A DNA stretch of 64,000 nt from Tomocerus qinae. Taxonomy: Eukaryota; Arthropoda; Collembola; Entomobryomorpha; Tomoceridae. The stretch spans positions 24,416,201 through 24,480,200 of the forward strand of contig CM034548.1 of assembly GCA_020055645.1 (NCBI GenBank). The letters run 5' to 3'. Under the pieces are notes generated by a model that saw nothing but the letters and a program-made list of their open reading frames with translations, made no database searches and was not told where the DNA came from. The translations under genes and the position numbers were made by a program. Below, piece by piece: positions 6,546 to 53,400 of this stretch (the first letter of the stretch is position 1; each line of letters opens with the position of its first letter).

Positions 6546-24101
<17,556 letters not shown>

Positions 24102-35631: not shown

Positions 35632-35854
35632 TTAAGTGCCCGATTTCCATCTCACCGTGACTGCCAAACATAGAAGAAGGAACATGGAAACAGCCTCTGC
35701 ACAGTTCCTCCCTACGGCTGACCCAAACACGGTCTGGATACATCTCTCGAAATCTTGGTAATCTATGTTGGTAATGACACAAAAATGAGTCCTCCGACAA
35801 AGGTTGCTGCATGACTTGGGATCTTCGTAGCCCACTGCGTTGGCAATGTAATAC
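35632..35854 (-). CDS. SMPDL3-like exon G: cysteine cluster and hydrophobic tail
   Basis: The exon reads YYIANAVGYEDPKSCSNLC, RRTHFCVITNIDYQDFERC, then a tail with AEAVSMFLLLCLAVTV and a short polar end RWKSGT before TAA at 35632-35634. The four cysteines match the C-terminal disulfide cluster of SMPDL3 proteins. The hydrophobic tail near the stop resembles the GPI-attachment signal of SMPDL3B, though the basic RWK at the end would also suit a membrane anchor. Acceptor CCCAAAG (35855-35856). Confidence 0.93.
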
Positions 35855-38800
35855 CTTTGGGAAACACAAAAATCCATATTTAGACTGGAATTATAGGTAC
35901 GAAATTACTCAAAACTATTTTCAATAAGCGCACAAGTTGCACAACTATTTTGCATGGAATGAATAACTTCACTAAAGAAATATTGTTCATTGAGATGTTA
36001 TCATGCCGAAGGAATTATATCTATTCCATATAGAAAAGAAGGTTACGAGAATTGCATTTCGTCAAGTTTTCAAAGAAATTTTACTGCAGTTGAGCCTGAC
36101 CAGAAATAAACTTTGGGAAATTCCCTGAAGCAAAAATATGTAATGGCAGTTTCCTGACGCTTCTCAGATTTGAAGAAATAGCAGAGGCTTTTATTTAAGA
36201 CTAGACGCTGGTGTGTAATTTTTGTGAAGCATGTAAGTAACTATGTAGAGAACTAACTGGAGAACTATCTCTCGTTGAGTACGTTATAACTAGAACTGTT
36301 TGCGAATTGAACGACATGTCTATAAAATTCTTTGAACCTATTGAATTGACTAGAGTGGAGAAAGAACCTTTCACATTCTCCGTATCACTATCACTACTAC
36401 TGCTCTATCTTGAACCATTTTAGTCGTCAGGTCAGGATCCTCAAAGAATACATTTAATATTGCACACAATACAGTAGACTGTCTCTTGAATCCCTATTCT
36501 ACTCCGGCTACTTACAGCATGTTATTTTATAGGTATCCGACTCTCTCTATTTCTGAAATAGCTTCACTAGTGACTTCAACTCTATGTGTATTTTACTTTC
36601 TCCTAGTAAAGTGTTATTTGTATCCTCACGTACCTTTTCGATTGCACCGACAGACTTACTGCATTGCAATGTAATCGTATCAATCTGTGCTATGCGCACT
36701 ACTACAACTATATCCACTCTCCTGTCCTGCATTCTATATTCTCAAGTCCAAATTCTCCAATGTCTGTTATACATCCCATACTTGTTAAAACAGAATTACA
36801 TTCAACTCTTTCAAAAAGACCTTGGACATCTCACATAGAAAATACAAAAAACAAATTATTCTCTGCCAAATATGTTTTTAAAGAAATTTTATTGAATTTG
36901 AAACTTGAGATGCAATTGTACTATCTTTCCTTTATTTTTGCTTAGAATCATTATGCCCACAAAATGTTCACGTTTTGTTGACTTTATTACAATTCCCTAT
37001 CAGCTCAATATTCTGACAACCATTTCCGTCTTCTATCCAGCATGTCCCTGTAAATCGATGACAGCATATCCGAACTCTGTTTGCCCAGCTCCACTGGGTA
37101 TTAGTATTGTATGGTCCTATTAGTTCTATTTTATTCATGGCCCTTAGCGTTAGGATGTACATACACACAATAAGTATCTATACATAGACTCTAGTATGTA
37201 TATCCACATCCTGAGTGAGTGCTGCTATTTATTCATTAGTTTTAGCCTTGCCTCATTTTATAATAATAGTCTATACCAAGATCAAGTAACTCTACGCATA
37301 CAAAGTAACTATATATCTCTCTTTTCTAGGGCTAACTGAGATGCCACTTTTTTTGCAACTGGGACTGGACTGGAAAAAGACAAGTAGATAATACATTATA
37401 AAGTAACTTGAGACTAAAACAGTTTGTTATTTGGCAATAGGGAAAGAAGAGTTTGTAACGAAAGTTTATTCCTTCATTATTTAATGTCAACTGACTCTCT
37501 TTTAATTTCCTCGGAAGACTTTTTTGATGGTATTCGATGGTCCAGCTATTACGTCACTGCCTTTTCTACTAGGATTCTCCAACTAATATTATATTCTTAA
37601 TAGAGGTGTTTATTTCTGCCTCCTTTGACGAAGATCATATTATATGCTCTATAATAGCAAATAAATCTAATTTTTTGTAAACCTGGTCTTAACATTTTGG
37701 CAATTTCCTTTTAAAATGGAATCTAGATTTTTTCTGCGAAATAAAAATCAAATACTATTATACTGTATCCATTATTCTAGTTTTATCCTTATGACATTAT
37801 AAGTTGTGAAGATCCTGAAATCAACAATTCGTAGTCTTGAAGCTGCATCGAAAGATAATAAGCAAAATTTTTCTCCTTGGATTCATATTCTTTTTTCGAT
37901 TTGGTATACTAGACTAAAGGTTAATGTAATTTTATATGCAACGGAGTTTCCCTAATCACATTTCTGAACGGAAAAACAATTTTACAGTTCAGGAAATCCT
38001 ACAAAATTTATCTACGTATAGAAATGCCATTTCGTCGTAAGTGTTCCAAAAGCATTGGCAAATTGTAATTTAATAGCGTTAGAAATGGAAACTCACGTAG
38101 CGGTATTCTAGTAATTAAAAATGGCTTATTAACTCTAGATGTTATAACGGCAAGTAATTTCGTTTTTTTCCTTTTTCAAGAATGCTTTTTGTATGTAAGA
38201 ATTCTTTGATATTGTGCAGAGAGTATGCGAAAGGAGGAAATCAATAATTAAGGCAACAAACTTGGTAAATGAAATATTATTAAGTGGTTTGAAACGAGGG
38301 AACTGAGAAAAGTTGTCAAACCCATGTAAAGAGTTGGAAGCGTGTTAGATCAATTAGCGGGTAAAGTGGCAGGAGTCAACTTACTTGTAAAATGGGTTGT
38401 TTTCTGTGTTCTCCAGGAAATTGAAAGCAAGATCACTCAGAGACGCAGCAGAAACATTTTTAAGATCATAGTATTGTGTGAGATTGTAAAGGATTTTCCA
38501 CTCCGCCTTGTTCTTTTGATTGGCCACTGTCAGGTTAAGGTAATACTGTGTGTAGTCGAAAATCTGTCCAGATGTTGTATTGTACTGGTACAGACGGACT
38601 CCAGGATTATTAGGACCAATTTCGTCAGCTATTGTTGATTTTCGAGGACTGACGGCAGGAGCAATAAACAGGTACGAAATTGGCTCTCGCTCCCAAAACT
38701 TCCCTTTTATTTTATCTAAGCAAGAAAAACAAAAGACTCTTATTCCCCTACATCCTCTATATTAGCACCGTCAACTCTCTTTCACTCCCACCACTTTCTT

Positions 38801-41800
38801 GTCACTGAATACAGTTGACAGCGGAGTACATACACACCTTTATATCTACTACTAGTAGCTATTGAACCCTGACAGACCTCTCTTCTCCGTCGAAATTCAT
38901 ACATCGGGTTCTTGTTTTATCCACTTTCTATACTTTCATCTTGTTGCCTCACTAACCTTTAGCTACCTCTCCAATCAATATTGAAATACCCACCTCCATC
39001 ATACGTACACAATTTTAACAAGTAAACATCAAATTTATCATTACCTTCAACAATAGTAATCAAATTATAAAAAATACAAATATAGCTGCCTTGGACATGT
39101 AAAAGTATTTATCTCACTTCCTAATTAGTGTTAAGCTAAACTTCATTCAAACTGGAAATGATGCATTGATGTACATAATGATATTTACTACTGTACCAAA
39201 TTTAGAAAAGTGTTAATTTATTATTCATTAATAGGAAATAATTCAAATGGAAAAACTTACCCATTTTCTCATAAAACACTCTAAAAGAGTCAGAGTGGAA
39301 GTGACCGAAAAATTGTCCTGCTATCACACTGGGGTAATCTCGTACCAATTTTAAATAGCTGCAATAATGAAATATCATATTATTTAGCAACCTTTATATT
39401 TAATAGTAGTAATCAAAATATTTCTAGAGCTTAATTTCATGTAGAAATGTGGCATGTAAATTAAATGAAGTGTTTCCGTAGAATTAGTAGCGAAAAAATA
39501 AACCCGAATATTTTCATCGATAACATATACAGCAATTTTCTAGTGTATAATTTTTCAATAAATCATTTCTTAATCTCATAAATCCTTTCCCTTAATCTAT
39601 TTTTTGGATCTAAAAGTTAATATATTTGTGATTTGTTTAAATACAGTTCATTGATTGGTATTTTTATTTAGTAATCAATAGTCAATATTATTATTTTCCC
39701 AGAAATTATACTTTTCACACTGTGTGTGCTGTTTTATGGATTGAAAACATTGGAGTAGAATTATAACTTGGCCCGTCAATGTTTTCGTGGACTTGGGAGA
39801 GATTTTGTCCTAATTAGGTACGTATTTGATAAGCATTGTCGCCCGTAAGTATAGTAATTTAGCCCACCCGTTGGATTTTCACCTGTAATTATAAAAATCT
39901 ACTAATCTCTTTCAGGTCTAAATATTTAAATAGAAAGGCATGTCAAAATTGAGAATGTTGATAAAGTGTTTTTAAATAGATGGTGTTCAATCGTCGACAG
40001 CTACCTACATTATATTTATCTCAGCTAGTGTGATTGTAGCCAATTATTCCAGAATCTATTACGCTATATGCTCACCACACTTTCTTTCATCTTAAAGTTA
40101 TAGCGTTTTGATATGAGAAAGCGGTTGATAGGGTTTGATAGCTACAGCGAAATCCATAGCCCGTAATTAAAACCAAATTAAAGTGCGATAGCGGTTGTAT
40201 ATATAACTATAGTCTGTAAGTAGCAATTCCCATTCTTGATATTTATTACTAACAAAGAAAATGTGACTCCTGAGGTGATTTTACTTGGAGCTTACGATGT
40301 ACTTTGGTTAGCACAGAAAGACATTAATGCATATCAAAAGATACACTTGCGTTCTACAATAAAAATCTCTATTTCTCGGATTTGAGAATATATAAAGCAA
40401 TAGGGAATTAAGTTGGCGTGTAATATTGCTTTAGCAAGAAGGTAGATGACATAAATGCCCAATAGTATCAATCAGTAATACCATCTGAAATGAAATCCTT
40501 AGAAAGAAATCGATAATAATGTATAAAATGACGGCAACAGGTTGTGCTTATCGAGGTTTCCTTTCGTAATGGACATGTTGACAGTCAGCGTTTGCAATTG
40601 CATTTTGGTTAATGCTATGAATTACTAACATCATCGCCGTTCCTTTCATCTCCGCATTCATTCTCATTCTATCTCCTCTAACTAACTTATGCATTATTGC
40701 ATTACGTACTCAAGATTAGGTAATCTAATTGTTGCGGCTAACTAAGTAATACCGACGTGACATGATTATCAAGAATTTACTCCCTGTCTTCTCTTTAATG
40801 CACAAGTACATTTCATTATCGTTTTATTATATCCCTTTCATTCTACTGGATATACCTATCATCCGGTTAATTTGCTACACGAAATAAACCATTGACACCA
40901 AATGTGAATTTTCCTCTACCCAATAAGAAAGCTATATTTAAACAGAATTTAAATACCATGATCAAAACAATCCCTATCGCATTTAAGTCATAAGAATACA
41001 CTAACGTTTTAAAAAGTAGAACAAAATTAACATTTTGATTCATTTTGTCAGTTTTGGACAAAACTAATTCAAATTCGTTAAATTAAAATCCAATTTCTAC
41101 ACCATGCTAATTTACGTCAAAAATAAATTAAGGACGCTTTGAATATTAGTGTAATTTCCCATTTGAGTGACATAATTGTGTTTTGTAAAAGTTGTTAAGC
41201 TAATTGCAATCAGTATGTTAAAGTCAGTGGGGAAATTCAAGACGAATGCTTCATGGAAAAGTTTTTAGGATTTTATTTAGTGGTTTACCACAAGTTAGGG
41301 AGTGCAGTATGTTATCCGTCAATTGATTCATTCGTTGTTATTTTATTTTATGAAAGGATACTGTCATAGTGTCTGAAGGAGCTTTTTCCTTGGCATGGGG
41401 TACATTAACTTTTGTACAGGAAACATAATATGCAGCGTAAAAGTCATGTCTGTAGTTGTTTTATTTATCCAGGAAAAGGGTTTTGTGGATAGAGAATTTT
41501 GTTAGGAGGGAGTGTTGGGTAAAAGATAACACCATAGTAGATGTTATTAGGTACTTAACTGATATAAAAGTGGAGCTATTATCTGTATGAGAGGAGTTTA
41601 GCAGGTTATTAAGGAAGTTGGTGGTCGTTGCATGATAATAAACTGATGAACGTTGCGCAGACTGTGACTAAAATGTTGTAGTCGTTAGTTAGTGAAAGTA
41701 TTAGCTGTCACTCATCACAACCGAAACACAACTCTCATGTTTAGCGGGTTGGACAGACATTTGATATTACTACATCGTATAATAGCGGATTCAATATCCA

Positions 41801-44800
41801 AAATGAAAATGGCAGTGAGGAACATAAAATGAAATGGGGGAATAAAACATGCAGTTTTTATTGATATGTGTATAGCAGCTAATAGATTTACATCCATAGT
41901 GTGTGCCTATCTATTTAAATTAGATACCTAACTGTGGAATGTAATTCTATAGTAAATACTGTAAGTATGCAAGGTTTTTGGTAATTGTCCTGTAGTCACG
42001 TAATTACGGAAATTGCTGAGCTATATGAGACAAGTCATTAGTTTTAAGTTATTAGTTGTTGCTGGAGCACATGTGAACCTTTCTACTGCTACAAAGTTCT
42101 ATTAGATGAAGACTCACTTTTTGTTGAACTGGTCTTGATATACATGGTAGCCAAATCGACTGCTCAAGTATCTCTCCATTTTCCCCGGCGGAGTATGTCC
42201 GATGATATAAACCATATCACCGTTGTTCTGAGCCTTCTGCAACATTTTTTCGAGCCACTCAAATTGTCCGGCTGGATCTTCTTCATTCGGTCCAATCAAA
42301 GTGTTCTTCTTGTAGTACAGACTCGTGTTGAGAATCAAAAGTTGTAGCTTCCTGTTCTTTTGCTCGATGGCATAAAAGCCGCCTGAAAAGAAACAACCGA
42401 AAATCAGGTCAGCTATCACTCTATTCAACTCACTCTCTTCCTAGTATACTACTACCCAGTCACTATCATCACTATCAATGTCTTTGCTACGCAGTGGCCT
42501 TTGCATTTAGCTTCCAACGACTTGAACGATCTATATTTTAATGCTCTTCGTCTATAATACAAATTATATGGCGGTGATGAGTATGTATAGTGCCTACAGA
42601 CAGCCATTTGCCCCGACAATACAAAACAGCCTTTTCTCCTTTATCAGAGACACTCGTGTTTCAACTCCTAGTACGTACCTCATACTTTCAGTCTACATAC
42701 ATTGCGTATACGTACTTAAATATCCTTACCTAATACATACATACGGCACTTGAAGTGGAAAGAGTCTTCGATTTCGCAAAGTAAGTATAAGAAAGTCAGA
42801 GACGGCCGTTCTCTATTGTTAGTCTCCTCTCCGTCCTGTTACACTCTCCCTAGACCTCCATCCACTCAGTAAAATAAAGTCTTAATGACTTCCTAGAAGT
42901 TAAATTTAAGTCGAGACGTAGACACTGAGAAGATCTTACAATTTTCTTCCTTTCTCTCCAAACCTATCCAATTACGTTTCACTGCATTAGATTCCAAACT
43001 GAGCTAAAAATATTTCATTAGCGTCTACTCCAATGTTTTCCAACTGTTAATGAATTATTGCCAGGGACTGGTTTATTGCATTCTCTTCTGTTACTGTCTT
43101 AATTATGTCTTGACAGAAGCCATATAATATTTATCTAAACTTATTTTACTTCTTTCCCACTCTAACTAAGCTATAAATACAAATCTGATTTTCTTGTTCT
43201 CTTTTAATTTATTAGCATGGACTACTTTCTCCAGAAATTAAATACATCGACTTAATCAATACCAGACTTTACTCTTTCCAATCACATTAATTATTTCATT
43301 TGCCACGCTAATTATTTCCCTTAAACTCATTAAAATTTACACTAAAAGAATCTCTCAGTCAACAGACAATCATTAAAATCCCCTCGTTTATTTTAACTAC
43401 TATTTACATTGATAACTAGGCTAATCAAAACAGAAAACTCTAAGGAGTATCCCTAAATAATTTGGCATGACTCGTAATTATAATTTGCCCCCTGTACATA
43501 CTATTTGCTTTTTCTGTTTCAATTAGTCACTGGGAAAATTGCCATTTCAAGAATTCTGTACGTTTGATTAAAATGTTTCCTTAAATCAAAATTTAGTGCA
43601 ACTAGTATTTTTGTAAATCAAGTTTTAAATCTATAGCTATATAGTTGTTTAGGTGAACTTTAGCTGTATGGGTAGAAAAATGTTTGGACAAAGATAAAGG
43701 TGGCTGATGATGTCAGAAAAAATTGTAATGTAAGTTGGAAGGAAGAAGTGTAATATAAATATAGTGACTGCTGACTGTCTCCATGAAATCTCTGAATTCA
43801 TTTTCATTTCTTCCTTCCTTGACACTTTTTGCGTCTCGCTTTCTCAGCTACTATCACTAGGCACTACTAGACTAACATTACTCTTGCTTTCTCTTTTCAA
43901 TAGAGGAAAGAAAAGAAGATTGTTGAGGCCAGCGGATTGGAATCGTGGGTTGCTCCGACTATAGGAAATAATAATGACAGTATAGCATAAACGAACGTAC
44001 GTAAGTGGCTTTTATTTGTATGAATATATAGCGGTTATATATAGGTATTATATAGATGTGTAAATGTATGCCAAATATTGAAGCTTGTATGTATAAATGT
44101 GTCTGTGTAGACTCAGCTGGAGTTGGGCATATTACATTCATTCAACCACCAAAAGTTACAAAGTTACAATGACATCATCTCTCACTTGAGTTCAGACAGA
44201 CAGACAGACAGAGCGATGCGATAGAGTAGCAGACAGTGGAGTGAATTCTATATCTCACTTAGCATTTAACAGTTTAGTCGGAGCAACTGCGGGGCTTAGA
44301 AAATGGAAGAAAGAACGGATGACATGAAAATGAATAAAAAGTATATTCTTCCGTGCAGTCTTAGCTAATGGAGTGTTATAAATTAAATGGTTATGTGTCG
44401 TAGGCTCATTGATTAAGCATATTGCCGCTTTTTTGGCTTATCGGGAGCTTGTCACTGCAGCCGTGAAAGTTGAAGGAGGAAGGAAAATTGAGACATCAAA
44501 TGAGTATAATATGAACCATTCTTCAAAGCAAATCCAAAAAGCTTTTCCTATCTCCACCATTACAATCCTTTGAAATCATCTGACGGAAGTGTTTCCACGC
44601 TCTCTAGAGCCTTCCCGGATATATTTCTAGTAAATAGAACAAAGAGGACCGCATCTCTCCAGATGTAACTGTTAATATTTCATACATATCTTCTATTCCT
44701 CCAACAGAATTTGCACTACAAAAACTTTAGATTAGTTCTAGCTAAACTATATTACAGCCTATATAGCCCTGCTCTCTCTCCTTCTCTGAAAACTAATAGT

Positions 44801-47800
44801 AAATGTAATTCCCTTTGCTAGTCTATGTAATAGTACTAGGTCATCCATATGTACTACATCTACCCACACAACAATATGGATCACTACATCAAATGGAATA
44901 TTTACTTCCCAAAGAATAATTCCTTAAGGCAATGCTAATACCATTTACATCTCTTTACGTGTAGGAGTAATTCTGGAAAACTTTCGAAGCATTTTAATTC
45001 CTATCAATTTTAATATCTCAAAAACAATTTCTTCTCCATTCCCCACCATTTTACTAATTCTCCATTTGGATAGAATGAATTTTCATACTTTATGACCGTG
45101 GTAATAATGTGACCTGTTAAAAGGACGTTTCCATATTTTCAAGGAGAATGTTGGCGTGAACAGTGGCACTTTAGTAGATATTTCATTAAATATAATCCCA
45201 GGCTGATGTACATGATATGTGCCCCCAAGTATCCCTGTACTATAATAAGTAATCTATTTTATGTGGTGACTCTAGGTTCTTGAGATTCACAGAGGTGCGA
45301 TACATAATTATACCCTGTATAGTAGTAATATGGACACGGGGTAAATGCATACATTAAGGAAGCCCCGCCCGTTCCGTGGTTGAGTTACCTTAATAATATG
45401 AAAGTATAATAAATACACAGGGAGTCAAAGGAACTATTCTAGAGACATGATATGACTCAACTGGGATGGCAGACAAAATGTAGTGGTCTCTTCTGCACGG
45501 GAGACCTTTTGCTTTCACACTCCAAGTTTTCATCGTGACCGCAGGTAAGAGACTACATTTGCAAGAAACTATTTATCATTATAAACGTGCTATAGGTACT
45601 TAGTTCTCGCTACGCAGTAAGGTTAAGCGTAATATCACGTTACAAATTAAAAGGGAAATGAAAAGGAAGAAATGATTATATAGACCAAATTACCACACAG
45701 GCAATATTAATACAACTTAGATGTAAAAGATGTAAATGAGGTTTAAAAATGCATTTCGACGTTTCCAGGTGGGAAGTATTTATAATTTAAGATGCAAACG
45801 AGTGCCTTAAGCTGCGAAATGGAAATCGTCTTTTCTTTTGTACAGAATGGAAAGAACATAAAGATGTTATGGAGGATTTGTACTTTGCCGACGCAGGTAA
45901 ATTGCTCCTTTCCTCTAACTACTCCATACCTACGTACATACTAACATTTATTATTAGTCAGATACATATACTTAATACTTATATACCTACTACAGCTCTG
46001 CCTTCTGGTGATCGTGATACTTAGAACGCATGGGATGACAGAGCCAATTACCAATATAATGGATTGTCATTGCATTCAAGAATTTAGAGGATGAAGAGGA
46101 GGATCCAACCAAACCCAAATAAAGATGCTTCAAATTAGAAGCCTCCCTTTCCTGCCACTTACTCCAAGACAAAACTTTTATGTGTTATGTTTCCAGCTCT
46201 CCTTCCCTTGTTTTCTCTTGCTTACACTTATTGTTATTTGCTCTCGATTACGCTTACATTCACAGTTTGTCTCTAATACTCTCCTATATTTTCTCCTTCA
46301 CTATCCACTATATAGTCCAATGATATAGAACCTTCCAACTACTAAGTATAGGCAGAGGTTAGCCCGTTAGCCTTTCACTATTTCTCCTAGATTTAAATTA
46401 CTACTGTAGATCTATACCTATCGAGTATATAATTTGGTATATCTGACAGACATATATTTTTCTTTCGTAAGCATTGGAACATCTGCCCTTATAGTAATGT
46501 AGGTATAATATAACTTCCATGCTACTTATTAGTATTTAGGTAAGTACATAAAGTTCGTCTGTCTACTATTATATATATACTAGTATAAGTAAAAGTGCAA
46601 TTCCTGTTGGCTGGCTCTTGTCTGACTCATTGTATTGCCGCTCCACTATAGTTAGGCCACACAACAAATTACATTAGGTATAAGATATCAGAGAATAACG
46701 CCGACGGGGTTATTCTGAGTAAAACTTTGCGTGTCTTTCTCCGAGTACCCACCCAACCCGGTAAAATGAGATTTGCTAGCGCTAAAAATGTTCTACTTGA
46801 AAAGTACCAACTCTGCAAAAATTTAGACTTTTTCTTCCTGAGGAATTGCTATAAATAACTTACAATTGTGGTAGAAAAATTATTTACCGTCTAACAAATT
46901 AATTCCCCTCTCAAATTGAAGAATAACTTGAAGAATAATGCACTTTTCCAACGTGAATGATAGTTACTATCCTAATGAAACTTTTTTTCTATAACAATGT
47001 GAAAATGGGTTCTTCTATTCCGAAGAGAAAGTACATTGCTACCGGTCCTGATGATGTGAATGAGAAACTTGAGATTTCGTTGTCTGTTTGTACAGTTTCT
47101 GGAGTATAACACTAACCTACTAATTCAAGTAAAATGGGAGTTCTAGAGAATTTCTCTGTAGCTGTATATTGCAATACAAAGGATTACAAGACATAAAGTG
47201 AGGTAGAAACAGCTTTCTCCGAGCATTCTCTCCAGCATTTAGACATATAGGTATACACATAAAGACTAAATAGATAAGCAGTTTAGATTAGAGAATTACC
47301 TTTCAAGAAAGTCCCGAGGGATTCAGGGGGAACCCACTTTGACCACAATTCGCCATAGCGCTGAAGCATCGATTTGAATTTGTGTTTACCCGGAGCCATC
47401 TCGTGTCTGGGGTACCAATCCAAACTTCCCAGGACTGGGTAAATATTCGCTGAAGAGAATTCTGAAGCTAGTAGAGCAGTGACGTTTCGAATTACTGTAA
47501 AGACGCTTTCATCGCTGAAAGCATCGTCAATATGCGTCGCATGGGATATCGAATCGCTGAAATTAAAATTAATTATTAGAAAACAGAATTTTGTGAATCT
47601 CTGTTTATTTTTCCTAACTTTTCCTTTAGCTAAATATATTTGGTGATAGTATCTGTAAAATCAGACGTTGTCACTACTATTATTTATTATGAGAGAGAAT
47701 AGGGAGCAAAGGGAAGAGTAGTATTTTAGAATTGTTGATAAGGTAGTTTTGTAAACGAATTATTTATTATTGTTGGCTGGGAATGTTATTAGATGGTTTA

Positions 47801-50469
47801 GTTTACGAGGAAGAGGATTGCCATTGAGGAAAAATAGTGACTAGTGAAAGAAGCAAGCGGGAAGAGATGGGAGATGAAGTAGACAGTTGAGACTTTATGG
47901 AGGGTGACACGATTGAGTGCATCGTTTTGTGTCACCATGTTGTTGGGCTATTTGAAAGGAAAACAATGGGAAAAGAGGGAGAAGAGTTAGTTAGTTTGTA
48001 GGTGGATGCATTTTTGTCCAGAATTCCGTGGAGTGACATAGTATTGTTACAGGCAGTAACTGTAGTTGGTGCTCAGGGGCCAAGGATTCTGTGAAGTGTT
48101 TGGAGGGAAAAGAGTGAGGATAGAGTGGCTATTGAACGACCTGGTCATTGAGTGTACTAATACATCGTTTAATTAGCACTGGGGACAATTGGAGTGAGTG
48201 AGTGGAGTGAATGATCGTAGTTGTTCCCGGGCAAATGTGATAAATTAGAATGGCCATTCTGAAGAGAGTTTGTGAGAAAGAACATTTGATGGTCGTCAAG
48301 AGAATGGCTGAGCGGCGGGTGGGAGCTCATTATTGGTAACACCATAAAATAACTCAGGCTGGAACGAGTTTTATTTTACTCGGTGTGGGTGCACCTCGGA
48401 CACAGGCCACGCCGTCCAATCTCATCTCTCTCCACGCACTCACTTTCTCCCGACTCTCTCCTTGCATTAATAGTACAAACACCTTCTTACTACTACTACT
48501 TCATCGTATGTGTGAGTGTGTGTGGTGAAAAGAGCGGGAGAGTGTTCATATTGCAGTGTCCCTCGTTCCTTAGCTATTCCACTTTGTTTTGCTAAGTACT
48601 TTCTTCTTCTCCTGACACAGGGAAAGTGGAGACGAGACAGGAAACACTCTCCTCGCCTATTTAATAGCTGTCTATATACGAAGAGAGTTCTGAATAACTC
48701 ACCCGGTCCACAAGATGAATTCCACTTCGGGCTTGACCTTTTTCATTGCCCGAATTGCCGACTCCACGAGGGAATATGGTGAGTCGCAACCGTAGTCACC
48801 AAAACGACCTTCAGCAGTCCGATACGACGCACCATTTTGGCGCCAGCACACTATCAATAAGATCAGATCACACACCAAACGTTTTAAAAAAGGCAATCAA
48901 CAACATAATAATAGTCACTCACACTTCGTCTCCACACTGATCAATCACAGTAAATGAGCCATTTCATACGACACGATATATCAACATCATTTGATCTAAT
49001 CAGACATTTTCATTTGCATACTCTCCCGACCCCCTCCTTTCTTTTCTAATCCACATTACATACCTCACACTACTTTCTATTAATATCTAACCCTAATCCA
49101 CTCATTTATTACTATTTATACTACATACGCATATATTTGTCCACTCTATTTATTAAACCTCTAAAAACTTGCATAACACAGGAACTCTTGATAATAGGTT
49201 GCTAAATTGCTCCAAAGAAATTATACTCTTGTATATACTCTAGTTGTATAAATTTATGTGTGTGCATTAATATTTTATCTTGTCTGGACAATAGTATATG
49301 CGTACATTATATAAACATAAGCCAATTTTAATGCCTAATCTTTTTGAATGTATTGTATGAGTGGATATCTGATACATCCAATTAGACCCGTATATCTCTA
49401 AATACCTATAGATATAGTATGTATGCTAATATTAAGATACATTTACTGCCGCAAATATATTTTGCTCCCACACGATTATAAATAATATTAGCACGATAGA
49501 ACTATTACCACATAGTAAATCATCCGCAACTTTCTTATTGTAGTTGAAGTCTACAATGTTCTTCTAGTCAGAAATATATGTATTACATCCTGAACAGAAC
49601 TTCCTCATTTCCTTCTTTAATGTTCTCTTTTCTCAGAACGGCGAAAGGAGCACTTTATTCTTCCTTCGTTAAATAACCCCTATCTACCTTCATTCTCCAG
49701 ACACATTGCATAATAAGTAAAGCACTATAGATAATGAATCGTTTTATAAACTGAACTCGATTCCTGATCCTATCTCTCACTCTGCTTTATTATATTTCCA
49801 ACCAACTTCAGTGACATTAACAATATATAAGAGCTTTAATTATCTCTCGCTAAATTTACACTACCTACTTAACGTGAACTACTATATAATATGTCATTCA
49901 AATACTTTTACATCATTTCTCAATAACGCTAATGCACAGATATTATACATACTTATTTTATACCAAGCTATGCAATTATGATTTACTATTGCCCTAACCA
50001 TTGTCTGCTGCATAATAGAAATGGCAATCTTCTCCCATTGTAAATACTGGATACCTAACTCAAAACTAGTTACAATGCCTAATATGCACTTCATATTAAC
50101 AAAGCATCAGACTAATCAATTTCTACTTTATTGTTTTAATCATTCCCCTGAAAATCCCTTTCTACACTAAACTGCAATCAATACTTTGCACCAGATGTAC
50201 TAAAGTGCCATATGAATCCTAATAATCCTGCAGTTACTTCTGTGTCTTTTTAATCCATTCCCTCTACTTTTAATACACTATAATACTTCTCCAATCATTA
50301 TTAATTTAATTAATCCTACTTTTATCCTTTACGTATTAATCTCACATTAAGTAGAACAGGCAATGTGCCGGAATGTAATAAATTATTTTTATTAGCTTAC
50401 TTTTATTTCGACCTCCATCCAACGTGTAATTCAATTCCAAATGGATGTCGGTAATTTGCCAGAAATAAC
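35632..50469 (-). CDS. Acid sphingomyelinase-like phosphodiesterase, SMPDL3 type (7 exons, 5' end missing)
   Basis: This is a calcineurin-like metallophosphoesterase of the acid sphingomyelinase family. Its vertebrate relatives SMPDL3A/B are secreted or GPI-anchored and cleave nucleotide phosphodiesters or act on membrane lipids. Coding exons in transcript order: 50469-50401, 48850-48703, 47556-47300, 42382-42118, 39358-39261, 38715-38385, 35854-35632. All junctions are GT-AG and all phases match, giving about 462 residues; the family is usually about 450-460 including the signal peptide. Motifs seen: FWQITDIH, TGD, GHTPPG, GHFHSD and the C-terminal cysteine cluster. The GNHD motif reads GSLD, which removes two active-site residues. 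Order and spacing resemble SMPDL3B most. The exon with start codon and signal peptide must lie to the right of 50469. It may be an inactive or altered enzyme. Confidence 0.93.
38385..38715 (-). CDS. SMPDL3-like exon F: C-terminal subdomain
   Basis: The exon includes EPISYLFIAPAVSPRKST, GPNNPGVRLYQYNTTSG, DYTQYYLNLTVANQKNKAEW and LYNLTQYYDLKNV. Several N-glycosylation sites are present (NTT, NLT twice, NVS). I placed the acceptor at CTTGCTTAG (start 38715) because it has the best pyrimidine tract and the right phase. A second in-phase acceptor about 30 bases inside would delete about ten residues. Donor GTAAGT after FYK. Confidence 0.92.
39261..39358 (-). CDS. SMPDL3-like exon E: GHxHxD metal motif
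   Basis: The exon encodes YLKLVRDYPSVIAGQFFGHF followed by HSDSFRVFYEKM. The GHFHSDSF motif carries the last two metal-binding histidines and matches GHHHTDSF and GHTHRDSI of relatives. Acceptor ATTATTGCAG, donor GTAAGT. Confidence 0.95.
42118..42382 (-). CDS. SMPDL3-like exon D: GFY and GHTPPG motif
   Basis: The exon continues GG-FYAIEQKNRKLQLLILNTSLYY, then DPAGQFEWLEKMLQKA, NNGDMVYIIGHTPPGKMERY and YQDQFNKK. LNTxLYY, DPxxQFEWLE and the metal-binding His of GHxPPG are all conserved. Acceptor TTTTCAG, donor GTGAGT, phases 1 and 2. Confidence 0.95.
42383..47299 (-). other. Largest traced intron of the SMPDL3-like gene (4.9 kb)
   Basis: The intron lies between exons C and D. No gene is recognised within it. 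On the opposite (plus) strand two short segments look exon-like: 45845-45895 and 43902-43982, both discussed under findings. A GACA microsatellite lies at about 44193-44212. Confidence 0.5.
44193..44212. repeat. (GACA)n microsatellite
   Basis: About five copies of GACA, within the large intron of the SMPDL3-like gene. Confidence 0.9.
47300..47556 (-). CDS. SMPDL3-like exon C: degenerate GNHD motif
   Basis: The exon begins DSISHATHIDDAFSDES and continues through FTVIRNVTALLASEFSSANI to YPVLGSLDWYPRHEM and ELWSKWVPPESLGTFLKG. In relatives the segment reads LGNHDYWP or LGNHDFHP. Here the codons at 47418-47429 give Gly-Ser-Leu-Asp, so the bridging-metal Asn and the catalytic His are absent. One N-glycosylation site (NVT) is seen. 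Acceptor TTTCAG, donor GTAATT, no frameshift. Confidence 0.92.
48703..48850 (-). CDS. SMPDL3-like exon B: GDYxCDSP and GD motif
   Basis: The reading is CWRQNGASYRTAEGRFGDYG, then CDSPYSLVESAIRAM, then EVEFILWTG, with the Asp of WTGD on the next exon. FGDYGCDSP and FILWTGD match the SMPDL3 pattern closely. The leading cysteine joins a Met across the splice (K-M-C), as in the KVC of relatives. Acceptor TTGATAG, donor GTGAGT. Confidence 0.92.
50401..50469 (-). CDS. SMPDL3-like exon A: metal-binding DxH motif
   Basis: The exon encodes YFWQITDIHLELNYTLDGGR. It is preceded by a clean TTTTTACAG acceptor and followed by a GTAAGC donor. The D-x-H of TDIH is the first metal-binding motif of the superfamily; vertebrate relatives read FWHVTDLHLDP. 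The usual Asp after the motif (HLDP) is Glu here. The exon starts with two bases of a split codon, so at least one upstream exon must exist. Confidence 0.88.
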
Positions 50470-53400
50470 CTGTAAAAATACAAAAATATCAAGGGTTAGA
50501 ATAAGTATAAACTTGGAAAATTTTTTTTTGCAAAATGGCATGGTGGATAGGAATAGGAAAGATGTAAGTGGCTATTCGCATCGTCTCAACTTTGTAATGA
50601 TTAATATACATTTGCAATCAAGAAATAAAAAGTTCCAGCATGGGTCATTGGGTTTAAATTCTCATTCCTAAATTCTCAACCTTAATTTATTGTTACTTCA
50701 TTGTTATTTATTCAGGCAAAGTATTTTTAATTTTTGACTTTTTGCAACGAATGTAGGTTATGGCGCAGTCGTTTGGCTAGTGACTAATAGAGAAAGGCAG
50801 CTAGTATTTTATGGATAATTAGAAATTAGCAAAGTCAGAGCATTTATGTGTATTTGAACAAAGTACAAATCTGTGCAAACAAGGTGATTATGATTTGGAG
50901 ATAGAAAGCAGTTTCCTCGTGAAAACAATAGGACATTCATTCCGAGTTTTCCATCTCGGTAATTGCACGGCTCCCTTGGATTCCAATAAGCAGTGCAGTA
51001 CGATCGTGTGGCAGATAAAGCTGCTTTCAGCCTCAGTCAGACTCCCTTATCTGATCGTGAGACTATGTACCTAACTATTTAATATCTGGGGAAGATCAGA
51101 GAAGTGGAGTGGAATCCGTCGGCAGTCGAGTCAGAATTAACGCTCCTGGATGAGCCAATCAACTGAATGTCGGTTTTCACTTCTCTCTACCAAATCCTAA
51201 TGTGAAACGCCAGAGCTTCCTCTTCGACTATTTGATGGAGTCTCGATCTCACATCACATTCACAATCATTCACTCTTTCTTATTGCCTACTCCTATAATT
51301 GCTAAGCAACTTTCCTCTTCCCTTTTCACGTTCCCATTCATTCACTACATAATTAAGTAGGTCCGCCTATTTATATCTGTTTATTACACTTTATAACTCA
51401 TTTATACGCTCAAAAAATCCTTGTTAATTAATTAAAGTAATCAAAAGCTTTCTTATCCTTTTCAGAAGTCACTTGAATACGATTAACTAGAAAAAGCCCA
51501 TAACTGTTTATTTTATAACTAAACTGAAAATGCAACGTTAATGAACATCAAAAACATGTTCATTAGCATCAGAATAATCCACTAAAGCTGCTCTAGCACA
51601 TTTTTGGATTAAAAGTATTACTACTATTACAATTTACCTCTTGACTTGAATTCTTTTCATACCAATTTTGAAGAAAGTCTCCTGTATTCCTTATTCTACA
51701 AACATTCTCAAGACAGGACGTATAAATGTATCAGGTATAGATTCACTGATATAGATTGAGAGACTCGGGATTTGTGTCAAAGCAGTCATTAAACTTGGTT
51801 GTCCGTAGATTTAAAATGTATGTTGTTGTGTGAGATTGGATTGAAAAGAATAATGATGTAGGTAAACTGAGGAGGATAGAATGAGGAGGGTGAGGGAGTA
51901 ATTGGAGGAGGAGGAGAAAGTTATTTCCGCAGTGAAAGAGCAGAGGAGGGAGGGGAAGTGCATAGAAAACGTGTATGAGGTGAAGTTTAGTGAAGTGAAG
52001 TGAAGGATATAATATGGCATTGTTTGTTGTTGGAGAGGATAAATGAGAGATAAAAGGATAATACAGAGAAATAGTCTAATATGGTATGAACATAGGTAAA
52101 TACAATAGCATTAGCATTGTGTGTGAGTTGTAGCAATTTACGTGGCATATGTAGGTACAGGAAATAAGTATACACTTTGGTTAGTGTTTCTGCCTGTGTA
52201 CAATGGTAGCATTTAGGACAGACTAGTATTTGTGAATGTACTTATGTATGTATCTATTGAGTGAGGATGACTGGTTGCATATCATCTAAAGCAGTTGGTT
52301 TGCTTTACTTTGGTTTACTTTGGCTTAGCTGACGTGAAGTATCCACATTTCTGGTAAATAGTAATAAATAGCTATAGTCCTAGTCGACTGTTTTAAGTAA
52401 AATAACGTACGGGTGCGGGTGTTGAATTTAATGGATGGTTGGTTAGTTAGCTCGTTGACTCATCTGTTTGAGTTGAGTCTCATCTCTGTAATGAGGAGGA
52501 CTTTGTAAAACAGAGCTGAATACAAGAGCCAGAGAGAGAAAGCCCCATGTCGTGTCTTTCTTCCTAAACTTAACTCCTGCATAGACTTGAGTTGCTCTGC
52601 CTCGATGCTTTGCTCCCTGGCCTCGTTTGTAACGAAAGTAACTATTCTCTCTCCTCCTATTGTCATTCTCATGTCACTTCTGTTCAGTTCAGTCACACTC
52701 ATTGTCACTACCCCATACTACTTATACAGACTGCTATAATCTATATAATAAGGAACAAAAACTAAATCCTGCCCTTCTAGTATATCTAGATCACTTTGAA
52801 ACCCAAATTTGGGAGTAGGTACAACCTACAGAAAATGTTTGTCGTTTTTATAGTGTACCTAGAATGTACATTAGGCTATTATTGTTGGAGTGTTGCAAGG
52901 AGAAAGGTATGCACCTGCATTGGTGCACACGAAATAACAGCAGGATAATAGAGTCAATACTTTAGCCATTGTGCGATGTGATGTAACGTTGTGATGGCAT
53001 CGAAAGCACGGGGATTTCTAACTGCTGAGCTATGACATCACATTCAAACTCAAATAGATACCTTCATCGGCTCAGCTACCCATTTCTGCACAACATGCTT
53101 ACATGACATTGCTACTACATCCATGAGCTATTTTACCTCACATTATATTGCATTTCCTTCCATTCTATACAATGCATTTGCTCATATAGTTACACAACAT
53201 TGCAAATTACACTGTTACATTTAATAGATGTCGTAGTCATACTTGAATGCTATGAATAGCCGTAGATACTACTAGAACTGCTACTACACTCTGAACATAA
53301 GTGCTTCTGACTACTACTACTACTCTCTCCATTATACATCCAACCTCGGCAAAAACCAAGTCATGTGCCAGTGCCAATCTACTACAGTCCACTATTACCT

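Follow-up and report, generated by a model that had tools for sequence, protein, structure and literature searches.

A GSLD motif in place of GNHD marks a candidate pseudoenzyme of the SMPDL3 family in the collembolan Tomocerus qinae

In a 64,000-nucleotide stretch of the Tomocerus qinae genome (contig CM034548.1; hereafter, the window), an otherwise intact SMPDL3-like gene on the minus strand carries the codons GGA AGT TTG GAT (47429-47418), which encode Gly134-Ser135-Leu136-Asp137 of the spliced protein in place of the GNHD motif of its relatives. This replacement had been put forward in the original prediction and was borne out by the alignments, since LGNHD stands opposite GSLD in all the five that were inspected (5ebe_A, 5ebe_B, 5ebb_A, 5kar_A and 9k2e_A), drawn from the 12 distinct PDB sequences matched by the spliced protein. 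The complete set of catalytic motifs including GNHD is not present, Asn having been changed to Ser and His to Leu, and from its sequence the gene would qualify as encoding a pseudoenzyme in the sense of replaced catalytic-motif residues in an otherwise intact gene. The reading that we favor, with moderate confidence, is that the product is an exported, probably membrane-held SMPDL3 protein with a weakened zinc site, being either non-catalytic or very slow.

The gene comprises eight coding exons (52969 to 35632) separated by seven GT-AG introns and joined in phase, and its spliced product of 481 aa contains no internal stop (Table 1); the earlier statement that stops and broken splice sites are missing was thus confirmed. 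The original prediction had also described seven exons joining in phase, of which the in-phase joining stood and the count did not, as the added exon 1 brings it to eight; the seven exons counted earlier are probably exons 2 to 8. Exon 1, a putative exon, is the weakest part of the gene model: a loose filter built to admit its unusual donor let through 12 combinations of exon and donor, this one included. Homology begins at aa 18-19, after the signal-like segment that this putative exon would encode. At the other end of the protein, a hydrophobic tail spans approximately aa 462-475 and is followed by RWKSGT; the best 15-residue hydropathy window starts at aa 459 (mean 2.29) and the tail is compatible with either a GPI signal or a short membrane span.

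Table 1. Exons of the SMPDL3-like gene and the altered motif (window coordinates).
Feature	Coordinates	Strand	Evidence
Altered motif GSLD in place of GNHD, aa 134-137, within exon 4	47418..47429	-	sequence, spliced translation, PDB alignments
Exon 1 (putative): start codon and signal-peptide-like MAKVLTLLSCCYFVCTNA, donor GTGCAT	52915..52969	-	phase, start context, hydrophobicity; no homology support
Exon 2: YFWQITDIHLELNYT, with D26 and H28	50401..50469	-	spliced translation, PDB alignments, motif columns
Exon 3: FGDYGCDSP (D64) to WTG, G91 split by intron	48703..48850	-	spliced translation, PDB alignments, motif columns
Exon 4: D92, H96, altered GSLD	47300..47556	-	spliced translation, PDB alignments, motif columns
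Exon 5: IIGHTPP with H239	42118..42382	-	spliced translation, PDB alignments, motif columns
Exon 6: GHFHSD with H284, H286, D288	39261..39358	-	spliced translation, PDB alignments, motif columns
Exon 7: initial part of the ASMase_C match (aa 309-449)	38385..38715	-	spliced translation, Pfam
Exon 8: remaining ASMase_C with C423, C427, C433, C446, hydrophobic tail, stop	35632..35854	-	spliced translation, Pfam, columns, hydropathy

The spliced protein matched the Pfam families Metallophos (PF00149; aa 21-287, 40 bits with a cut-off of 21.5) and ASMase_C (PF19272; 114 bits with a cut-off of 23.7), neither of these two being saposin. Among the PDB matches, eight SMPDL3A/B sequences gave E-values from 7.3e-87 to 2.6e-82, the best being a SMPDL3A chain (7.3e-87), and four SMPD1 sequences gave E-values from 7e-44 to 8.2e-43; judged by these match E-values, the protein appears nearer to SMPDL3A/B than to SMPD1 among the solved structures. 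The order of the domains, Metallophos then ASMase_C without an N-terminal saposin, points to a member of the SMPDL3 family by descent. With SMPDL3A and SMPDL3B the protein shares both domains, the ligand motifs and six cysteines, and it differs from them in GSLD for GNHD, in insertions of approximately 2, 3, 4 and 9 residues and in overall sequence, the identity being 39% to 5ebe_A (SMPDL3A) and 35% to 5kar_A (SMPDL3B). The longest insertion, of about nine charged residues (KIKGKFWERE region, aa 299-308, about 38684-38713 on the minus strand), lies at the start of exon 7 shortly after GHFHSD and is absent from both PDB references. SMPD1, the source of the residue roles discussed below, is homologous over aa 24/40-434 (best E 7e-44); in contrast to it, the collembolan protein has no saposin match and the positions of Asn318 and His319, assigned by motif, are replaced.

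Pattern searches in a prokaryote contig collection gave 47 matches with one confirmed relative locus, and in a viral contig collection 34 matches with no confirmed relative. The one confirmed locus (L001, 3001-7324, on a contig labelled Verrucomicrobiaceae bacterium MAG) holds two tandem ASM-like genes with interrupted frames, both with GNHE; the contig may be of eukaryotic origin and have been binned with a bacterium.

In order to compare the motif residues with both references, twelve columns were chosen (26, 28, 64, 92, 96, 135, 136, 137, 239, 284, 286 and 288). Ten of them are identical to both references, the only exceptions being 135 (Asn to Ser) and 136 (His to Leu). The residues D26xH28, D92, H96, H239 and H284xH286xD288 are intact, in agreement with the earlier claim for DxH, GD, GHxPP and GHxHxD, and the cysteines common to both references are all retained (6/6), as had been noted for the C-terminal ones. 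D64 would be, from its motif, the Asp assisting the donor His. Where both references agree, 104 of 169 columns are kept and 65 changed (94 of 157 kept outside the twelve chosen columns), so that the Asn and His replacements are two among many.

The passage from Asn-His codons to AGT TTG takes four or more base changes: Asn accounts for one (AAT to AGT, counted by eye) and His for three (computed), every shortest path from His to TTG having three steps. The shortest path that is Leu from the first step contains two silent steps, other paths existing, and the gene uses TTG more often than any other Leu codon (14/42). Both observations would fit a Leu136 that is old and kept, without being proof of it.

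Correspondence to ASM numbering was established by motif context; the enzyme numbered His280 and His317 is mouse ASM, and its His280 position is retained here as H96. According to the consulted sections of the work on human ASM, the two zincs are bridged by Asp278, one zinc has Asn318 and His425 as ligands, and the residues in contact with the phosphoryl oxygens include Asn318 and His319 (PMC5062611). The Asn is therefore a zinc ligand and not a bridge, and the original idea that it bridges the second metal does not hold. The further idea that the GNHD His helps protonate the leaving group has one study on its side and one against it. The preferred proton donor in the former is His319, the GNHD-type His, whose substitution H319Y leads to severe ASM deficiency in humans (PMC5062611, sections consulted); in the latter, His280 is the likely donor and the GNHD-type His317 probably serves substrate binding. 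There, His317 matters on liposomes, and His317Ala only slightly lowers activity on the soluble substrate bNPP (PMC4961792, sections consulted). The GNHD His as donor is thus one side of an open dispute, and how essential this residue is depends on the substrate.

In the reading that we favor, an intact SMPDL3-family gene would encode a protein that is exported and probably stays attached to the membrane through its hydrophobic tail, retaining the fold and most of the zinc-ligand positions. With Ser at the position of the Asn that ligates one zinc and touches the phosphate, and Leu at the neighboring phosphate-touching His, Ser135/Leu136 would weaken zinc binding on the Asn side and remove the phosphate clamp. 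Owing to these two effects turnover would be absent or very slow, ligand binding may survive, and the protein would be left with a putative binding, regulatory or dimer-partner role. The kept ligand positions also speak against this explanation, as they would be equally expected of an active enzyme.

Catalytic residues have often been lost in natural members of hydrolase families, which limits the surprise. An engineered parallel comes from calcineurin H151, which we take to be the His of its GNHD-type motif. The phosphatase-dead H151A mutant equals the wild type in restoring TCR zeta phosphorylation and acts as an adaptor (PMC11407306, sections consulted); the calcineurin His-Asp pair that donates the proton corresponds to ASM His317 (PMC4961792, figure legend). 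Different from the present case, this is an engineered mutant of a distant family with the same fold. The SMPDL3A of Clonorchis sinensis likewise comes from an invertebrate and has a hydrophobic segment at its C-terminus, and its zinc-bridging residue is reported to be replaced by Gly, a change at another position than those in GSLD; loss of activity is not discussed in the consulted sections of that paper (PMC12841337).

According to a review, SMPDL3A and SMPDL3B hydrolyse cGAMP and form dimers on it, and SMPDL3B is GPI-anchored (PMC13157387, sections consulted). The hydrophobic tail found here would fit membrane anchoring. The dimerisation makes a non-cutting binder or dimer partner attractive, albeit unproved. 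In its boldest form, which we regard as improbable, the proposal would be a maintained invertebrate pseudo-SMPDL3 that binds a phosphodiester (a cyclic dinucleotide, for example) at the membrane without cutting it, and works as a sensor or sink or as the dominant partner in dimers with catalytic SMPDL3 paralogues.

Activity on small substrates may remain, considering the slight effect of His317Ala on bNPP (PMC4961792, sections consulted) together with the kept H96, and an enzyme for small substrates is the strongest rival, though we hold it clearly less probable than a non-catalytic or very slow protein. In such an enzyme of altered chemistry, Ser would ligate the metal weakly or through water, His96 would protonate the leaving group, and the substrates cut would be soluble phosphodiesters, nucleotides among them. 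The retention of H96, D64 and the other motif columns and the bNPP result are in its favor, and so is the variety of substrates in the family, a bacterial ASM-like protein being able to hydrolyse ATP and not sphingomyelin, with zinc as the weakest of the transition metals tested (PMC4140839, sections consulted). It has to face, however, that the zinc-ligating position and its neighbor are replaced together, and that in human ASM each of the two touches the phosphoryl group (PMC5062611, sections consulted). We consider it unlikely that the gene has just begun to decay, or evolves under relaxed constraint, and lost its active site before anything else: the 65 changed columns among the 169 shared by the references would agree with it, whereas no stop, frameshift or broken splice site was found. 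We also simulated substitutions alone, leaving aside indels, splice sites and changes preceding loss of constraint, with 3000 runs at each of eight divergences between 0.01 and 0.2. A stop-free frame combined with hits at no fewer than four of the six sites concerned had a probability of 3.5e-6 at most, a post hoc figure that is uncorrected for site choice and assumes an unchanged Asn-His start. The GC3 of the gene is 0.49, above that of every third intron base (mean GC 0.348, sd 0.030, maximum 0.448 in 2000 samples) and of single introns (GC 0.313 to 0.407). A recent loss of constraint may be compatible with this GC3 and with the intact frame.

Least probable of all, and in our view very improbable, is that GSLD stems from a mistake in sequencing or assembly, or that an overlooked alternative exon supplies GNHD. 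The pattern search, which would miss a GNHD whose codons are divided between two exons, found no unsplit GNH[DE] in any of the window's six frames; introns 3 and 4 are contained in the window in full, and tblastn with three exon pieces (E up to 100) revealed no convincing second copy of exon 4 in the 64 kb. The best other exon 4 match had an E-value of 1.0 (19.6 bits), among many weak chance-like ones, and an alternative or duplicated exon 4 was rejected on the weak matches and on the missing unsplit GNH[DE]. The original view that a single sequencing error is unlikely is supported by the four or more clustered base differences that leave the frame unchanged. Taken with the missing alternative exon, the GC3 above that of introns and the simulation, these differences make both an error and a long neutral decay unlikely, though they are no proof that the altered state has been maintained.

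Should the altered site prove to be conserved in related species, the gene would provide a natural pseudoenzyme in a family lately tied to the breakdown of cGAMP, an immune messenger, and a way to probe SMPDL3 roles apart from catalysis. In open-licence literature searched under the terms SMPDL3 or sphingomyelinase pseudoenzyme, a scope that leaves aside subscription papers and other wordings, we found no printed case. A follow-up is worthwhile in view of the SMPDL3 setting and of a clean change limited to two residues of the motif.

Across the window, Rfam (gathering threshold) and ARAGORN returned nothing. At 8475-8649, a 28-base unit is repeated in tandem (6.2 copies, 93% matches). On the plus strand, NF1-like exons span 14893-17450, with RasGAP pieces at 14893-15243 and 15279-15668 and PH_NF1 at 16995-17450; four of ten open frames gave any match, one of them below the cut-off, and a joined piece matches the PDB neurofibromin 6v65_B with an E-value of 7e-101.
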